IMG/VR virus record: IMGVR_UViG_3300025120_000372
Span: 1 to 28,841 of that record
Direction: 5' to 3' (one strand)
DNA length: 28,841 bases
From: a virus
Below the pieces are notes generated by a model. That model had not been told where the DNA came from and did no database searches. It was given only the letters and a program-made list of their open reading frames with translations. The translations under genes were made by a program, and so were the position numbers. Of the stretch, positions 1,550 through 11,948 are shown piece after piece; the stretch's first letter is position 1; the number at the start of each line of letters is the position of its first letter.

Positions 1550-1659
1550 TGAAAAAGTTTTTTAAACGCCTCGAAGAAAACCCGCTTGTTGAGTTGGTGG
1601 GCATCGTTGCTTTACTAGCTGCCTTGGGTGTCTCTTTGTTTTTCGGTCAACCGATATGA
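1549..1659 (+). CDS. Small single-pass membrane peptide, 36 aa
   Basis: A short open frame beginning at the ATG that overlaps the previous stop (TAATG) and ending in an ATGA overlap with the next gene. GGGAG lies a suitable distance upstream. The peptide has a basic start (MKKFFKR), an acidic turn, and then about 19 hydrophobic residues (VGIVALLAALGVSLFF region, residues 15-33) that would span the inner membrane once. Its tight coupling on both sides supports it as a real gene. The function is unknown. Confidence 0.6.
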   Translation: MKKFFKRLEENPLVELVGIVALLAALGVSLFFGQPI

Positions 1660-1841
1660 ACGAAGTTAATCGAGCGCTGTTGATTGTAGACGATAATGCA
1701 GTTTGCAAACAATGCAAAGGCAACGGCTTCACAGCAGACTTTAACCACTTCACCGGAAAAACAGATTTTGAAGATTGTTTTTTCTGTGACAGCAGCGGCA
1801 AAGAAACAGTTTTAGTTTTTAACAAAAAGGAAACAAAATGA
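1656..1841 (+). CDS. Small zinc-ribbon protein with DnaJ-like CxxC pair, 61 aa
   Basis: It contains CKQCKGNG (C17, C20) and CFFCDSSGK (C41, C44), the CxxCxGxG...CxxCxxxG spacing of a DnaJ-type or general zinc ribbon, which suggests one structural zinc. It starts with ATGA overlap on the upstream membrane peptide and ends with ATGA overlap on the next gene, which repeats the second CxxC segment almost base for base. Phages often carry such mini zinc fingers near replication and recombination genes; the role here is unknown. Confidence 0.7.
   Translation: MNEVNRALLIVDDNAVCKQCKGNGFTADFNHFTGKTDFEDCFFCDSSGKETVLVFNKKETK
1761..1801 (+). repeat. Direct repeat copy 1 (CxxC-encoding segment)
   Basis: This 41-base segment matches 1913-1953 at 38 positions, including 31 bases with a single mismatch (1771-1801 against 1923-1953). 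It encodes TDFEDCFFCDSSGK. Both copies are read in the frame of their own gene. Confidence 0.9.
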
Positions 1842-2409: not shown

Positions 2410-2884
2410 ATTTGAGGACATTCGAGAAATGGCCGACCAGATCCGGTTGCTTACGGGTGACGATCAGGACACGTTTTTAGACACGCTGGATGGCGAAACA
2501 GATGCAATGGATATTCTAGGCAAGTTAATACAAGAACGCACTGAATGTTCCATCTACGAAGCGTCAGCAAAAGAGTTAGCTGCAACATACATTGGCAGAG
2601 CAAAGCGATTGTCTGCAAAGCAAGATGCAATATCGCAAACAATGGGACAGCTTCTTGACGCAATGGATGAAAAGAAAATTCAACACGCTTTAGGAACTGT
2701 AAGTAGAACGAAAGCCAGGTGGTCAGTAAGAATTGATGATGAGGCAGAAGTTCCTTCGCAGCTTAATAAAGTAACAACAAAGCCAGACGTTGCAGCAATT
2801 AAAAGGCTAATGGACGAGGGCGAGACAGTCCCAGGCTGCTCAATCAATCCAGGCAACCCATCGATTACAGTGAGGATCAAATGA
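2399..2884 (+). CDS. Gp157-family phage protein (PF05565-like)
   Basis: About 161 residues from the ATG at 2399, which has AAGGG 8 bases upstream; a GTG at 2390 would add three residues. The pattern is that of the Siphovirus Gp157 family: a long N-terminal helical part, a coiled-coil stretch (RAKRLSAKQDAISQTMGQLLDAM), then strands ending in KVTTKPDVAAIKRLMDEGETVPG, whose KPDxxAIKxxxxxGExVPG signature is characteristic. In many phages it sits directly before a single-strand annealing or recombination gene, as here. Its biochemical role is not established; older reports link it to phage resistance in Streptococcus. ATGA overlap with the recombinase gene. Confidence 0.87.
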   Translation: MYIKFEDIREMADQIRLLTGDDQDTFLDTLDGETDAMDILGKLIQERTECSIYEASAKELAATYIGRAKRLSAKQDAISQTMGQLLDAMDEKKIQHALGTVSRTKARWSVRIDDEAEVPSQLNKVTTKPDVAAIKRLMDEGETVPGCSINPGNPSITVRIK

Positions 2885-3600
2885 GCGACCTACAAAAAGC
2901 AATGTCAGAAGTAAACGATCTGAATAGAACGCATGGAGTAACCCAGCGAGGCGGCAAAAAATACACAGAAGTATTCGTGCGCGTTGAAGCTTTCCGCAAA
3001 GCATTTGGTACAGATTATGGAATTGACACACAGATTGTTGTTGATGATGGCAAGCGCGTTGTTGTTAAAGCAGTCATTACAAACGCCGCCGGCATGACTA
3101 TCGGATCTGGAATGGCTGAAGAAATCAGGGGTGTTGGCAATGTCAATAAAACGTCAGCCCTTGAGAACGGCGAAACCAGCGCCATAGGACGCGCATTGGC
3201 TTCTTTGGGCCTACATGGTGGAACTTACGCTAGCATCAATGAGATCGATGCTGTGCCACGCAAACAGCAAGCCCAGAAAGAACAAGCCGCTGGTCCATCT
3301 ACGAAGGCGGCAGAGCCCGAAACGGTTGCATTGTTAACTCACACTGGCAAACAATTAAAAGAACTGGATCATTCAGAGTTTGCTGAAAGCCTAATTAAAA
3401 TGTTTAAAGTGTACTGCACTACGACACATGACAAAGAGGGCAATGAGGTCGAACCACGCAGACGCATGACTTTGTTACGCGAGTTAAAAGAACACAACGA
3501 AAGCTCGATTGCTTTAGTAAGTGGGCCATTAACTGAGCAGATAACAAAAGCCTACACCAAAAGCTTGCGGTCTCTGGGCGCACAGAATGGAGAAAAGTAA
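2881..3600 (+). CDS. Putative single-strand DNA annealing recombinase (Rad52/ERF type)
   Basis: A 239-residue protein. The N-terminal 120 residues carry a strand-rich core (FVRVEAFRKAFG, VVKAVITNAAG) followed by NKTSALENGETSAIGRALASLGL (about 97-119), the conserved helix seen in many phage annealing proteins of the Rad52/ERF group. A low-complexity Lys/Gln/Ala linker (about 134-155) leads to a separate helical C-terminal domain, often used to bind SSB. Such proteins anneal complementary strands in phage recombination and concatemer formation. The Gp157-like gene just upstream and RusA in the same control region support the role. The exact superfamily is uncertain without a profile search. Confidence 0.68.
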   Translation: MSDLQKAMSEVNDLNRTHGVTQRGGKKYTEVFVRVEAFRKAFGTDYGIDTQIVVDDGKRVVVKAVITNAAGMTIGSGMAEEIRGVGNVNKTSALENGETSAIGRALASLGLHGGTYASINEIDAVPRKQQAQKEQAAGPSTKAAEPETVALLTHTGKQLKELDHSEFAESLIKMFKVYCTTTHDKEGNEVEPRRRMTLLRELKEHNESSIALVSGPLTEQITKAYTKSLRSLGAQNGEK

Positions 3601-3810
3601 ATGGAAACTTGGGGAGAAATAAAAGCCAGGCAAAAAAAAGAACAGGTTGAGTTAATAAACAAAATTGCTCAAACTGAAATAACGCAAACAGAAGCAGCGA
3701 AAAAACTAGGAATATCACCACAAAATCTAAACAGTTTTATTTTAAAAAACGATATTGATTGGCCTGTTAAAAAACAGGGGAGGAGAGCAAAATGTATGGA
3801 CCAGAAGTGA
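3601..3810 (+). CDS. Small helix-turn-helix protein, 69 aa
   Basis: It begins immediately after the recombinase stop codon, with GGAG about 8 bases before the ATG. A helix-turn-helix occupies residues about 27-50 (TQTEAAKKLGISPQNLNSFILKN), resembling Psq- or XRE-type motifs, flanked by basic residues and a basic tail (KKQGRRAK). It probably binds DNA as a small regulator. It overlaps the next gene by 19 bases, and its C-terminal residues cover that gene's strong ribosome binding site. Confidence 0.68.
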   Translation: METWGEIKARQKKEQVELINKIAQTEITQTEAAKKLGISPQNLNSFILKNDIDWPVKKQGRRAKCMDQK

Positions 3811-4466
3811 GCGCAATAATTAACGGCTCTCAGCAAGGATTAACTCATAGAGAAACCGCAAATATGTTTGGGATGTCTTATTACAGAGTAAAAAAAATAT
3901 CAAAAAAACTTAAAATTGAATTTGTTTGTGCAAGGAGAAAAGCAAATGAACAGCGATTTAGAAAAAATTCTACTGAGGACAAAAAGACTTTTGAAAATAA
4001 TGACAATGAAAGCAACAAACTCCAGCCGCCCGAACCTCAAAATGGAACTGGAAGAGGTATCAGCAATGATGGAAATGATCAGCAGAAATTTGGAAAAATC
4101 AAAAAAATGATAATGGATTATGAAACAGTTTATGCCACACGTTTAATGAATTTTGAAACCAATCAGGCACGACAAAGGCTCAGGCCACCACTGCCAATAA
4201 ACTGCGATAAAATTAGAAACAGCAAAAACATAAGAATAAATCCCAGGCAAAATGCAGCTATGCAACTTAAAAGAATAATTATTATGGATCTTTTTACAAA
4301 AAACAAAAAGCTTACTTCACACGCCGTTGCTGGTTTATGTGAATTTACAACTCAATCGTCAGGTCAGATCTTAAATCTTTTGTTTCGAGAAGATAAGCTG
4401 GTAAGAGAACAAGTTTATTTCGGGCCAAATGTTAAAGACGCTGTCTACGTTTATAGCAAACCTTAA
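3792..4466 (+). CDS. Two-domain HTH protein, or fusion of two HTH genes, 224 aa
   Basis: The start has a strong site (GGGGAGGAG, 6 bases before ATG). Residues about 16-42 (LTHRETANMFGMSYYRVKKISKKLKI) form an HTH. Residues about 52-105 are polar and of low complexity and coincide with a nested frame at 3946-4110. Residues 106-224 begin at an internal in-frame ATG (4107) and end in a likely winged helix (LTSHAVAGLCEFTTQSSGQILNLLF, about 176-200). So this is either one protein with an unstructured linker, or two genes that share a frame and became fused when a stop was lost. It may also make a shorter 119-residue product from 4107. Family unknown. Confidence 0.65.
   Translation: MYGPEVSAIINGSQQGLTHRETANMFGMSYYRVKKISKKLKIEFVCARRKANEQRFRKNSTEDKKTFENNDNESNKLQPPEPQNGTGRGISNDGNDQQKFGKIKKMIMDYETVYATRLMNFETNQARQRLRPPLPINCDKIRNSKNIRINPRQNAAMQLKRIIIMDLFTKNKKLTSHAVAGLCEFTTQSSGQILNLLFREDKLVREQVYFGPNVKDAVYVYSKP
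3946..4110 (+). CDS. Nested small gene in the +1 frame, 54 aa
   Basis: Inside the 3792-4466 frame, an ATG at 3946 is preceded by AAGGAG with 8-base spacing, as good as any site in the operon. It opens a frame of 54 codons encoding an amphipathic, Leu/Met/Lys-rich helix pair (MNSDLEKILLRTKRLLKIM, ELEEVSAMMEMISRNLEK). Its TGA overlaps an ATG at 4107 in ATGA form, the coupling used throughout this phage. This product looks more protein-like than the overlapping polar stretch in the large frame. It could still be chance, as no homologue was checked. Confidence 0.5.
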   Translation: MNSDLEKILLRTKRLLKIMTMKATNSSRPNLKMELEEVSAMMEMISRNLEKSKK

Positions 4467-4675
4467 TGTATTGGGCCGTTCTTATTTTAACTTACTATGT
4501 TGAAGATCATACGATACATTCAAAAATTTACTTTAAAGATATAGCAACCTGTCACATAGCAAGTGATATCTATTACCCACTTATATCTGAGGAGTATGAA
4601 TTTTCTATGGCACGATGTAGAGAAACAGATTTATTCCACAGCGAGTTTAAACAAAGACCAAAGCTTAGACCATAA
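4466..4675 (+). CDS. Small secreted or membrane-anchored protein with two cysteines, 69 aa
   Basis: Last gene of the early operon, coupled to the previous stop by TAATG and without a clear Shine-Dalgarno. The start is hydrophobic (MYWAVLILTYYV), resembling an uncleaved signal anchor, followed by a polar part with cysteines at 29 and 51. The layout resembles the 56-residue protein at 5117-5287, also with Cys29 and a second Cys about 20 residues on. A disulfide in the periplasm is possible. Its 3' end overlaps the end of the endolysin gene on the other strand by 11 bases. Confidence 0.55.
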   Translation: MYWAVLILTYYVEDHTIHSKIYFKDIATCHIASDIYYPLISEEYEFSMARCRETDLFHSEFKQRPKLRP

Positions 4676-5885: not shown

Positions 5886-6241
5886 TTGTTTTCTCCCCTA
5901 TCGTCAAAGCTTATCGAAGCTTTAGTCTTATCAGACTTTGCAGAGTAGGCATTGAAGCCCATGTAAGCAGCAACAACACCAGATGCAGCGATAACGTACA
6001 CACTAGCTATATCTGTAATTAAAGTAGCAGCTTTGTCAAAGCCTAGAACAGAAGCAAAAAGAATAATAAACGGATAGATCAACATACCAGCTAAAGCAAA
6101 ACCCGTAAATCTACGCTCTGCATTACGCTTTAAATCCTGGTCATGTATCTCAAGCCTACGGTCTTCGAGCGCGAGTAGGTTCCATTCGGTGCGCTCAATC
6201 GTTGAGTTATTGTTTAGATCTGCCTTATCAAACTCTGTCAT
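5882..6241 (-). CDS. EF-hand-like membrane protein, 119 aa
   Basis: Residues 8-19 (DLNNNSTIERTE) fit an EF-hand loop: D at 1, N at 3, N at 5, I at 8, E at 9 and E at 12, with Ser in place of the usual Gly at 6. A helical stretch follows (about 20-45), then two transmembrane segments (about 47-68 and 73-96) and a basic/acidic tail. AGGA sits about 6 bases before the ATG. It is the first gene of the lysis cassette after an AT-rich leader. Similar EF-hand plus two-TM proteins occur in other marine phages (from memory). A calcium-sensing role in lysis is inference only. Confidence 0.78.
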   Translation of the reverse strand: MTEFDKADLNNNSTIERTEWNLLALEDRRLEIHDQDLKRNAERRFTGFALAGMLIYPFIILFASVLGFDKAATLITDIASVYVIAASGVVAAYMGFNAYSAKSDKTKASISFDDRGENK

Positions 6242-7976: not shown

Positions 7977-10900
7977 TTATGCTACTTGTATAGTAATTAC
8001 ACCATCTACACGGGTGCTATTTGTGAGTAGATTAAGATTATTTACATAACTTGTTCCTTGATTTATGTATTGAAGATATGCATAAGACTGACTAACTGCT
8101 CCATTAATAGTAGCATCGGTAATTGTAACTCCAGCGTTGCTAATAAAACCTACAACGCCACCTCCCGTTGTCCCACTTATAGAAGTAAACGGAAGACCAG
8201 CTACTATACAATCTCCAGAGAGACTTCCTTTAGCTGCCAGAGTAACTGAAAATGAGGCAACTAGGGTACGACCTACCTTGGTATAAGTACCTGTTGCACT
8301 AGAATAAGACTGACCAGAAACACCACCCGTGCCTCTAAGAACAGGTGTCCAAGTCCCTTCCTCATAATGATCCAGAATTTCAGCCGTAGTAGATGCACCG
8401 CCTGCTGAAGTAGCTGTCTGTGCAGAAAAATCAATGCCCTTACCTGCTGTGCCGATTACTAGGTTTCCGTCTGGAATTAAGGCATTCCCATTACCTTGAA
8501 GTTTTAATACCTGTTTCTGTGCTGTAAACGGCGCACCACTACCATCGTGGATATTAAACGCAAGAAAGCTATTAGTAGAAGTCCCTGAGTGTGAAGACAT
8601 GATAGAGTGATACCGCACAGTTGAACTGCTACGACTAATCCTAATCTTTTCAGCCTCAGTATTATCTCCAGTGGATACTCCTAAATACAATATGTCACCA
8701 ATAACATCTAACTTACCTTGATTAGATGTAGAACCACCAATGTTGACGTTGCCTGACGAGTCGATGCGCATACGTTCTGAGCCATTAGTGTTAAAACGCA
8801 AGTCATTATCACCTGTGCCACCACCGTAACGAATAGAGCCGCCGGGAGAGCCAGCACCACCTTGGACTGTTATAGCGTGTGCAGATGAAAGTGTGCCAAT
8901 GTAAGCACCGTTTGAAATCCCAATATTTCCTGACGAGTCAATGCGCATACGTTCTGAGGTTGTACCAGCAGTAGTGCCAGTACGTAGGGCTAAAAAAGCA
9001 CCTGAACCACTTGCCGCTAATTGCACCCCACCCGAAGTTGACTGGAACTGTTCAAAGAATGAATCAGCACCCCTTGAAATTTTTAAACCATTACCGCCGC
9101 TAGTTGTGGCTGCTTCAATCCTATAGGTAGGGCTTGATACCCCAATCCCAACATTACCGCTGCTGTCGATGCGTAGTCGCTCACCAAAAGTGCCATCTTT
9201 TCTTGTGTAAAATGCTAAGTCTGCTGTTCTATTTGCAGAGGTACTAAAATCTTCAGTGGCAATAGCTGATAAATACGCACCAGCCACATTATTTGCTGGA
9301 GCAAGAATTAAATTAGCCACGTTGTTTGTGGTGGCGTTTGTATTTGTAATGTAAAAGTTTGTTGTCGTTGCATGACTACCTCTGAAAAAGTAAGAGTCAA
9401 TTGCTGATGTGGTTGCATCTATAGTTCCGCTAATATCCACATTGCCTGTAACCTGACCCGTAGTCCCATCGCTGAAAATCTGTAGATCAGAGCCAGCGCC
9501 AAAAATGGCTTTGTTATTATCTCCAAAGAGAACATTGTTAGAACCCGTTGTATTGCCAATGCCCAGAACGGTGGACAGACTTCCCGCGCCACCCCCTGCC
9601 GTAGCAGCATCAACATAAGCTTTGATTGATTGCTGGGAAGCGATCTTAGTAGCACTGTTAGAAGCAAAGTTATCTTCGTCCAAGAACGCAGATCCAGATA
9701 CACCCGTATTTAATACGGGGCTAGTTAGTGTCTTATTTGTTAATGTATCTGTAGTAGCTTTACCTACCAGTGTGTCACTAGCATCAGGGAATAGAATAGT
9801 TCTAGTAGCAGTAGGATCAACAAGACCAAGATTAGTTACATTGCTGTTTTGATAAATACCTAATGTTGGAGTAGAACTACCATTGAATTGAAAGTTACTA
9901 TTGCCATTAGGGTCTGAAATATAAACCTGACCACCATCAGCTTCTAAGAAAATGTCATTACCAGAATTAATCTTAAGGCTTGCAAGGGAAGTAATGCTTT
10001 GGGTTGCACTGTTGTTTATTGCAACCGTTAATCTAGTTACGTTATCATCTTTAAAGAAAAATGTACCACTGCTTGCATCTATAATAATATTACTGGATGA
10101 ATCTAATGTAATCCCACCACCACCATCGTTTGTAATTTTATCTAACGCAATGCTACCAACATTAGTTATGTTTACATCGCTCATATCTAAGCTGCCCGTT
10201 ATAGTGGGGCTAGTTAGAGTTTTATTTGTAAGGGTGTCGGTAGTAGCTTTACCAACCAAAGTATCACTGGCGTCTGGAAGAAGCAAAGCTCTTGTTCCAG
10301 TAGGATCAACAACACCCAATGATGTGGTGTTGCTGTTTTGATAATATACCATAGTTGCCTGGGCGTTATTAACAAACTGTATTCTTTGCTGACCACTGGT
10401 TCCAAGTATATCAACATTACCACCAGCGGGTTTAAGAGCAATATCATTAGCAGAGTTTACATTAAAACCAGAAGCAGAGTTAAGCGTGGCAGCTACAGCA
10501 CTAACTTGAAATGTAAGCCTGGTCGCTCCACCATCTTTAAAATAAATTTCACCACCGTCTGCATCTAAGGTGATATCACCAGACGAATCTATAACTACAT
10601 CGCCTGAGAAGTTTAAGTTTCCAGTAAAGGCGGGATTAGCAAGTGTCTTATTGGTTAGCGTGTCTGTTGTAGCTTTACCCACAAGAGTATCGCTTGCATC
10701 TGGAAGAAGCAGCACCCTTGAGCCAGTAGGATTAACCACGCCTAGTTTAGTTGTATTGCTATTCTGGTAATAAGTTATCGTTGAACTACCAGCAGAATTG
10801 ATCTGAACAGCTTGCGCCCCAGAGTTTTGGAGAAAATCAACAGTACCAGTTGAGGGTTTAAAAGCTATACTCCCGTTTGTAACAGCCATGATAAGTTCGG

Positions 10901-11948
10901 TTGCTGAAACAATAGATGTGCCAGCAGCGCCAAGCTCAAATGTTATTCTAAGCGTACCGCCATCTTTGAAAAATACCTGATCACCGGCGGCATCTAAAAC
11001 AATGTCACCAGCAGCATCTAAAAGAATATCGCCAGATCCAGTGAGAGTGCCTACACCTAAACTACCTGTGATAACGGGGCTTGCTAAAGTTTTATTTGTT
11101 AGCGTGTCTGTCGTGGCCTTACCGACAAGCGTATCACTAGCATCAGGAAGCAGTAACGTCCTAGTAGCAGTAGGATCAACAACCCCTAATTTTGTAACAT
11201 TACTAGCTTGAAAATACTGCATCGTTGGTTGTGCGGTATTATCAAGCGCCATTCTTTGTGCGCCTGTGCTGGCAAGAAGATTAATCTGACCGCCGCCAGG
11301 CTTAAAATCTATATCGCCAGAAGTGCTTACTATTGTAAGGTTATCAGCAGCCGTAATAAGGTCAGTAATATTGCCATTGATAACAAGTTTAGTTGCACCA
11401 GCAGAGGTTTTAATTGTTATCTTTTGTGTATCAATATCAGTTCCTACAACCTCACTAACAGGTACAGTTGTAACATTGCCGGAAGCATCAAACTTTATAA
11501 GTTCATTTGCACGATCAGCAACCAAGGGAAGGCTAAGATTAACTCCAACAAGTTTGTCGCCTGGTTGCGCTATAATCGATCTGTCAACTTTTTCATCAAG
11601 TTGCTGTGACATAACCACGTTGCTATCAAGCTGCTCATTCAATGAAGAAGCAAGGAGATCACCCGCAGTAACAAAGTCAGTTGTTCTGGAAAGCTCTCTA
11701 CCACCCATGATAATTAAAGTATCAGAGGATATAAGCGCCGTGACTAAGGAAACTGACCCCGTTCCATTTGCGTTTATTGATACGCTGTAATTCGTTGCGC
11801 CGGTTCCAATCGCTAATACCACGTTGTTTTTTAAAACAGCGATATCGGAAGCTTGTAATATGTTGAAACTAAAAGCGAATGGCCCTGTTCCAGTAGTGCC
11901 TTGAAACTGAACTCTGCGCGTAACGGGGTTAATTGCGATATCGGTCAT
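7977..11948 (-). CDS. Tail fibre protein with T7-gp17-like N-terminus, 1323 aa
   Basis: The first 130 residues (RVQFQGTTGTGPFAFSFNIL, SLNEQLDSNVVMSQQLDEKVDR) resemble the N-terminal domain of T7-group tail fibres, which attaches to the tail. Residues about 254-743 hold four copies of a repeat built around LPDASDTLVGKATTDTLTNKTL, each followed by a beta-rich FKDGG-type segment, as in long beta-helical shafts. Residues about 920-1070 hold three copies of RxRIDSSGNxxIG. The C-terminus (from about 1194, EEGTWTPVLRG) is a receptor-side domain seen in many marine phage fibres. At 1323 residues it is more than twice T7 gp17 (553). It is the last large gene of the structural operon. Confidence 0.9.
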   Translation of the reverse strand: MTDIAINPVTRRVQFQGTTGTGPFAFSFNILQASDIAVLKNNVVLAIGTGATNYSVSINANGTGSVSLVTALISSDTLIIMGGRELSRTTDFVTAGDLLASSLNEQLDSNVVMSQQLDEKVDRSIIAQPGDKLVGVNLSLPLVADRANELIKFDASGNVTTVPVSEVVGTDIDTQKITIKTSAGATKLVINGNITDLITAADNLTIVSTSGDIDFKPGGGQINLLASTGAQRMALDNTAQPTMQYFQASNVTKLGVVDPTATRTLLLPDASDTLVGKATTDTLTNKTLASPVITGSLGVGTLTGSGDILLDAAGDIVLDAAGDQVFFKDGGTLRITFELGAAGTSIVSATELIMAVTNGSIAFKPSTGTVDFLQNSGAQAVQINSAGSSTITYYQNSNTTKLGVVNPTGSRVLLLPDASDTLVGKATTDTLTNKTLANPAFTGNLNFSGDVVIDSSGDITLDADGGEIYFKDGGATRLTFQVSAVAATLNSASGFNVNSANDIALKPAGGNVDILGTSGQQRIQFVNNAQATMVYYQNSNTTSLGVVDPTGTRALLLPDASDTLVGKATTDTLTNKTLTSPTITGSLDMSDVNITNVGSIALDKITNDGGGGITLDSSSNIIIDASSGTFFFKDDNVTRLTVAINNSATQSITSLASLKINSGNDIFLEADGGQVYISDPNGNSNFQFNGSSTPTLGIYQNSNVTNLGLVDPTATRTILFPDASDTLVGKATTDTLTNKTLTSPVLNTGVSGSAFLDEDNFASNSATKIASQQSIKAYVDAATAGGGAGSLSTVLGIGNTTGSNNVLFGDNNKAIFGAGSDLQIFSDGTTGQVTGNVDISGTIDATTSAIDSYFFRGSHATTTNFYITNTNATTNNVANLILAPANNVAGAYLSAIATEDFSTSANRTADLAFYTRKDGTFGERLRIDSSGNVGIGVSSPTYRIEAATTSGGNGLKISRGADSFFEQFQSTSGGVQLAASGSGAFLALRTGTTAGTTSERMRIDSSGNIGISNGAYIGTLSSAHAITVQGGAGSPGGSIRYGGGTGDNDLRFNTNGSERMRIDSSGNVNIGGSTSNQGKLDVIGDILYLGVSTGDNTEAEKIRISRSSSTVRYHSIMSSHSGTSTNSFLAFNIHDGSGAPFTAQKQVLKLQGNGNALIPDGNLVIGTAGKGIDFSAQTATSAGGASTTAEILDHYEEGTWTPVLRGTGGVSGQSYSSATGTYTKVGRTLVASFSVTLAAKGSLSGDCIVAGLPFTSISGTTGGGVVGFISNAGVTITDATINGAVSQSYAYLQYINQGTSYVNNLNLLTNSTRVDGVITIQVA
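8752..8957. repeat. Near-identical 29-base direct repeats within the tail fibre gene
   Basis: 8752-8780 and 8929-8957 match at 28 of 29 bases and encode SERMRIDSSG; a more diverged third copy lies near 9160-9185. The high DNA identity suggests recent duplication within the distal fibre. Confidence 0.8.
9721..11190. repeat. Four tandem modules in the tail fibre shaft
   Basis: Homologous segments of about 110 bases start near 9721, 10211, 10637 and 11084, so the modules repeat every 426-490 bases (142-163 residues). Each encodes a variant of LGVVDPTxxRxLLLPDASDTLVGKATTDTLTNKTL. The copies differ at many silent sites, so the duplications are old or under selection at protein level. The different linker lengths between copies suggest expansion and loss of shaft modules. 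Confidence 0.85.

Follow-up and report, generated by a model that had tools for sequence, protein, structure and literature searches.

A helical-hairpin gene nested in the linker of a two-domain DNA-binding-type gene is conserved in uncultured phages

When a small open reading frame (ORF) with a good ribosome site lies inside a larger gene in another frame, does the DNA encode two proteins, or is the larger frame an accident? We analyzed a 28.8-kb virus record of 28,841 nucleotides (the window), which carries a tailed-phage gene set. Its leftward genes encode a large terminase, a head-tail adaptor, a major head protein, tail proteins, and an endolysin. Its rightward genes ahead of the locus are Gam-like and recombination-type; the locus forms their downstream end, facing the lysis and structural genes. 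Here a long frame (3792 to 4466, plus strand) encodes a 224-amino-acid two-domain DNA-binding-type protein, as judged by ORF coordinates, orthologues, and AlphaFold2. Within it, on the same strand, a +1-frame gene (3946 to 4110) encodes a 54-amino-acid helical hairpin protein, recognized by profile matches, selection, and AlphaFold2. A Shine-Dalgarno sequence, AAGGAG (3932 to 3937, plus strand), stands 8 nt before its ATG. An initial annotation had given these two ORF coordinates exactly and left two readings, a true dual-coding segment or a first gene that lost its stop and now runs into a third.

We first consider the long protein. AlphaFold2 (mean pLDDT, 74.5) predicts a helix-turn-helix (HTH), a disordered linker, a helix, and a winged helix, which bears out the two-domain layout proposed in the annotation. 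The N-terminal HTH comprises residues 4 to 39 (3801 to 3908, plus strand; pLDDT about 88) and gives weak Sigma70_r4- and HTH_23-type matches. Confidence drops under 50 at residues 64 to 92, a helix follows at 94 to 127, and the C-terminal winged helix occupies residues about 151 to 222 (4242 to 4457, plus strand; pLDDT about 91), with weak matches to Zalpha, TFE, and MarR-type winged helices. A Foldseek search with the long protein returned weak matches, mainly to winged-helix DNA-binding proteins (best E value, 0.0025). No Pfam family was found at cutoff, family libraries gave weak HTH-type matches at most, and a layout of two domains joined by a dual-coding linker matched no family. The long protein is thus predicted to have the HTH and winged-helix folds expected of a sequence-specific transcription regulator.

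The nested product is predicted with high confidence (pLDDT, 93.4) as two helices, residues 3 to 25 and 29 to 53. Family libraries searched with it gave nothing usable, and Foldseek returned chance-level matches only. A PDB sequence search with the nested profile produced TAL-repeat matches over 14 residues, which we judged to be a repeat artefact. The AAGGAG motif falls in Arg-Arg-Lys codons of the long frame, and its predicted duplex with the 16S tail is worth -8.5 kcal/mol versus -11.2 at the long gene's own site. The dual-coding segment (3945 to 4112, plus strand) is, in the long frame, a stop-free polar linker with little sequence constraint. The annotation had the nested ORF exactly covering the middle of the long protein; this holds only roughly, since the ORF spans residues 52 to 106. 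Synonymous shuffling of the long gene yields a +1 ORF of at least 54 codons in 82% of trials, so the length of the nested ORF in one sequence is no evidence for a gene.

We therefore turned to relatives. Direct searches found two close relatives only, L001 and L002. Using the upstream recombination-type gene (2881 to 3600) as a query led to 80 loci, among which the same arrangement recurs at low similarity. Because an all-clade nested profile was too divergent for scanning collections, clade-level profiles were used, and these brought further loci. We searched all open stretches of viral contigs with a profile of the nested protein at a cutoff E value of 1e-3 or better. Of 141 matches, 140 were wholly embedded in an open frame at a constant relative phase and one was cut by a contig edge; this near-universal embedding is partly conditional because many loci were fetched with a nested-protein query, a route that could also have picked up free-standing copies. 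Among the matches listed, open stretches in the third forward frame cover 43% at most. Distinct complete pairs number 102 and fall into 11 clades of uncultured phages. Across these clades the nested protein measures about 46 to 62 amino acids, and 29 diverse members share the invariant residues R, R, M, R, N, L, and E. INPHARED phages gave no match for P0001, for the long proteins from four groups (L081, L153, L122, and L127), or for two nested proteins; no match was found in GTDB genomes, and literature searches on phage nested or dual-coding genes turned up nothing on this pair.

We also examined the start signals of the nested gene. An ATG or GTG with a ribosome-site-like sequence ahead of it is found in the clades, and in every clade the mean predicted pairing with the 16S tail is stronger for nested starts than for control ATG/GTG triplets within these genes. 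Seven clades show a clear margin and four a modest one, with 12 to 19% of control starts in four clades equal to the nested start in strength. Weak nested ribosome sites occur in L111, L124, and L148.

We next examined selection on the two frames. In place of a full codon model, we counted substitutions on the edges of within-clade minimum-spanning trees. Change per site at long-frame codon positions 1, 2, and 3 was 0.044, 0.029, and 0.137 before the overlap, 0.068, 0.033, and 0.027 inside it, and 0.052, 0.032, and 0.167 after it. Comparing codon-position counts of the overlap with those of the flanks gave p values of 1e-64 and 1e-90, with changes treated as independent. A long-frame synonymous-rate profile, of the kind that the annotation had called for over 3946 to 4110, gives the same picture: the rate stands at about 0.2 outside, drops to 0.01 to 0.07 over most of the overlap, and is back at 0.2 right after the nested stop. 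When changes in the overlap were classed by their effect in both frames, w_nested was about 0.28 and w_long about 0.86. These substitution patterns show purifying selection on the nested frame and a long frame that, inside the overlap, is nearly free in sequence yet strictly stop-free. Changes that would create a stop in the long frame only, being silent in the nested frame, were seen 1.5 times versus about 34 expected. Holding the nested protein fixed and redrawing its codons leaves the long frame open with a probability of 0.0002 to 0.07 per clade. The joint probability over 11 clade representatives is about 1e-25, and that of the converse about 1e-6; both are guides rather than strict p values because the clades share ancestry. 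Between clades, identity is about 40% for the nested protein (24% when shuffled) and 25% for the long-frame overlap (22% when shuffled). No homologue was found that keeps the polar middle while breaking the nested frame; instead, conservation between clades lies in the nested protein, and the middle is near its shuffled control. As read from sequence comparison, selection holds both frames open, and it is the nested protein that accounts for amino-acid conservation in the overlap. Embedding in 140 of 141 matches across 11 clades, depressed synonymous change, and purifying selection on the nested frame together strongly support the annotation's first reading, a true dual-coding segment, and the comparative evidence puts the nested ORF well past what chance would give.

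The modules around the hairpin are less constant. The first HTH stands alone in L067, L069, L071, and L073, where it ends near the would-be nested start. The nested gene occurs without this HTH in L148 and the L127 clade, and in L127 (2985 to 3614), L130, L134, and L136 the long frame lacks the first HTH and has a different C-terminal part in the same relative frame. The winged helix is missing from the L017 clade. No C-terminal domain without the nested gene was found among 104 loci. Since the other modules come and go among loci, the nested gene is the constant part of the set. Codon usage, compared to ask which frame is older, did not separate the two frames (p = 0.70). Tentatively, and with more doubt than confidence, we suggest that a linker frame overprinted a small gene lying between two genes for regulators and joined these into one, and that the small gene was then retained within the linker in many phage lineages because hairpin and fused regulator cooperate and a shared mRNA stretch sets their ratio. 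An old fusion by read-through is possible as the remote evolutionary origin. A weak relative of the nested protein (E value of 5e-4 with the first profile) was seen in L016 at 5937 to 6104, where the long gene is absent; 77 nt of it overlap the tail of an HTH gene upstream, and beyond that it is free-standing. This arrangement is possibly a pre-fusion or a deletion state.

How do other readings fare against these data? The annotation's second reading was a recent read-through, in which a stopless HTH gene continues by accident across the middle gene, itself intact, and into a third, and the long frame makes no real product. The solitary HTH genes ending near the boundary, an ATGA in the window (4107 to 4110, plus strand), where the nested stop TGA (4108 to 4110) overlaps an in-frame ATG of the long frame, and a linker almost without sequence constraint all fit such an event. 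Yet the frame is single and open in all 11 clades, against the joint probability given above if it were unconstrained, stop changes are depleted about 20 times, and the C-terminal homologues never show the first and third parts as separate genes, all 140 complete embedded pairs staying one open frame. We consider a lost stop highly improbable. The ATGA had also been taken as the punctuation of three coupled genes. This reading is unsupported because the start at 4107 is limited to the window's own clade (the window, L001, and L002). It is unlikely, though less so than a lost stop, that within this clade a third product of 119 amino acids is made from ATG 4107 by coupling at the ATGA: ATGATAATG is identical across the three sequences, but three such close relatives cannot reveal selection, the start is unconserved in other clades, and its upstream site is weak (-3.3 kcal/mol).

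Two further readings concern what the overlap encodes. Programmed frameshifting could fuse the HTH to the hairpin, instead of or besides producing a free hairpin, and in the clades examined the nested frame is indeed open for some codons upstream of its start. Against this, the nested start has an ATG or GTG and a ribosome-site-like sequence in the clades, and the L127 clade and L148 keep it though no HTH precedes; frameshifting is very unlikely. RNA structure or a regulatory element without a second protein would depress synonymous change too, but the change we observe has a period of three bases and falls chiefly at position 1 of the long-frame codon, the wobble position of the nested frame, and the nested amino-acid motif persists through about 60% divergence, making an RNA element scarcely credible. 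A functional overlapping gene pair, a DNA-binding-type protein with an internally started helical hairpin wholly inside it in the +1 frame, is very probably the right explanation.

The immediate neighbors of the pair are also small genes. Upstream, gene A (3601 to 3810, plus strand) encodes a 69-amino-acid HTH protein, and its 3' end overlaps the long-gene start. The HTH of gene A is similar to the one with which the long protein begins (HTH2; hhalign probability, 94%). The window thus contains successive, seemingly related HTH parts at 3601 to 3810 and 3792 to 3950, and the codons for the basic stretch at the end of each hold the next gene's ribosome site. Downstream, another 69-amino-acid gene (4466 to 4675, plus strand) shares a TAATG overlap with the long-gene stop and has relatives in several clades; it matched no known family. 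Small cysteine-rich, zinc-ribbon-like genes lie near the pair in the window (1656 to 1841 and 1838 to 2092), in L078 (4872 to 5060), and in L153 (2620 to 2823), and the two in the window have the string DCFFCDSSGK in common. Farther away, window positions 7977 to 11948 encode a 1,323-amino-acid protein in which a segment resembling NTTKLGVVDPTGTRALLLPDASDTLVGKATTDTLTNKTL occurs several times.

Out-of-frame nested genes of phages include lambda Rz/Rz1 and phiX174 A/B and D/E. Leviviral lysis genes are a further case (PMC7693330). The present pair resembles all of these in having a small gene fully or largely embedded and served by its own ribosome site: the hairpin gene lies on the same strand, in a different frame, and wholly inside a host frame that is kept open, and it is under purifying selection. 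It differs in that the proteins are unrelated and the host gene is regulator-type. We specifically considered an Rz/Rz1 spanin pair and rejected it; no lysis family matched either protein in PHROGs or the long protein in Pfam, and the nested product, a polar helical hairpin, has no visible signal sequence. Both ordered parts of the long protein share their predicted fold with generic phage HTH and winged-helix regulators (MarR, Zalpha, TFE, and sigma-70 region 4 folds). Rop-like hairpins are likewise small two-helix proteins, and a designed Rop variant is among the chance-level Foldseek matches (E value, about 4), a likeness without demonstrated sequence similarity and no proof of kinship. By behavior, the closest analogues are overprinted linkers of other viruses. 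In the linker/movement protein overlap of apple stem grooving virus and the polymerase spacer/surface gene overlap of hepadnaviruses, one frame serves as a linker or spacer (PMC8227390). Like these, the present overlap sets a conserved protein opposite a fast-evolving linker between two domains, and the two frames evolve asymmetrically; the linker is disordered and weakly constrained and the protein opposite it is constrained. Those cases come from eukaryotic viruses and join enzyme or capsid domains, whereas here the genome is of tailed-phage type, the domains are DNA-binding-type, and the whole nested gene sits inside.

The picture we propose is that one mRNA region would be read in two frames, giving a DNA-binding-type protein, with HTH and winged helix in most clades, and a hairpin of about 46 to 62 amino acids made from its own internal ribosome site. 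In the long frame, the overlap bases serve as a stop-free, mostly disordered interdomain linker. We infer internal initiation at 3946 and DNA binding by the long protein. Least certain, the hairpin may act as a small partner to the regulator, binding or tuning it, and be made with it in a set ratio, which would come from ribosomes of both frames sharing one stretch. Because the pair ends the rightward recombination-type genes and faces the lysis and structural genes, its position suggests a role in an early-to-late switch or in host takeover. The dual-coding pair is real, conserved in uncultured phages, and an instance of a general kind already known. Where two frames overlap fully, gene callers usually keep just one, which can hide a conserved protein family; the family described here spans eleven divergent phage groups, all uncultured, and no match to it was found in isolates. 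It offers a clean natural case for examining frame seniority, the easing of overlap cost by a disordered linker, and functional coupling through overlap.
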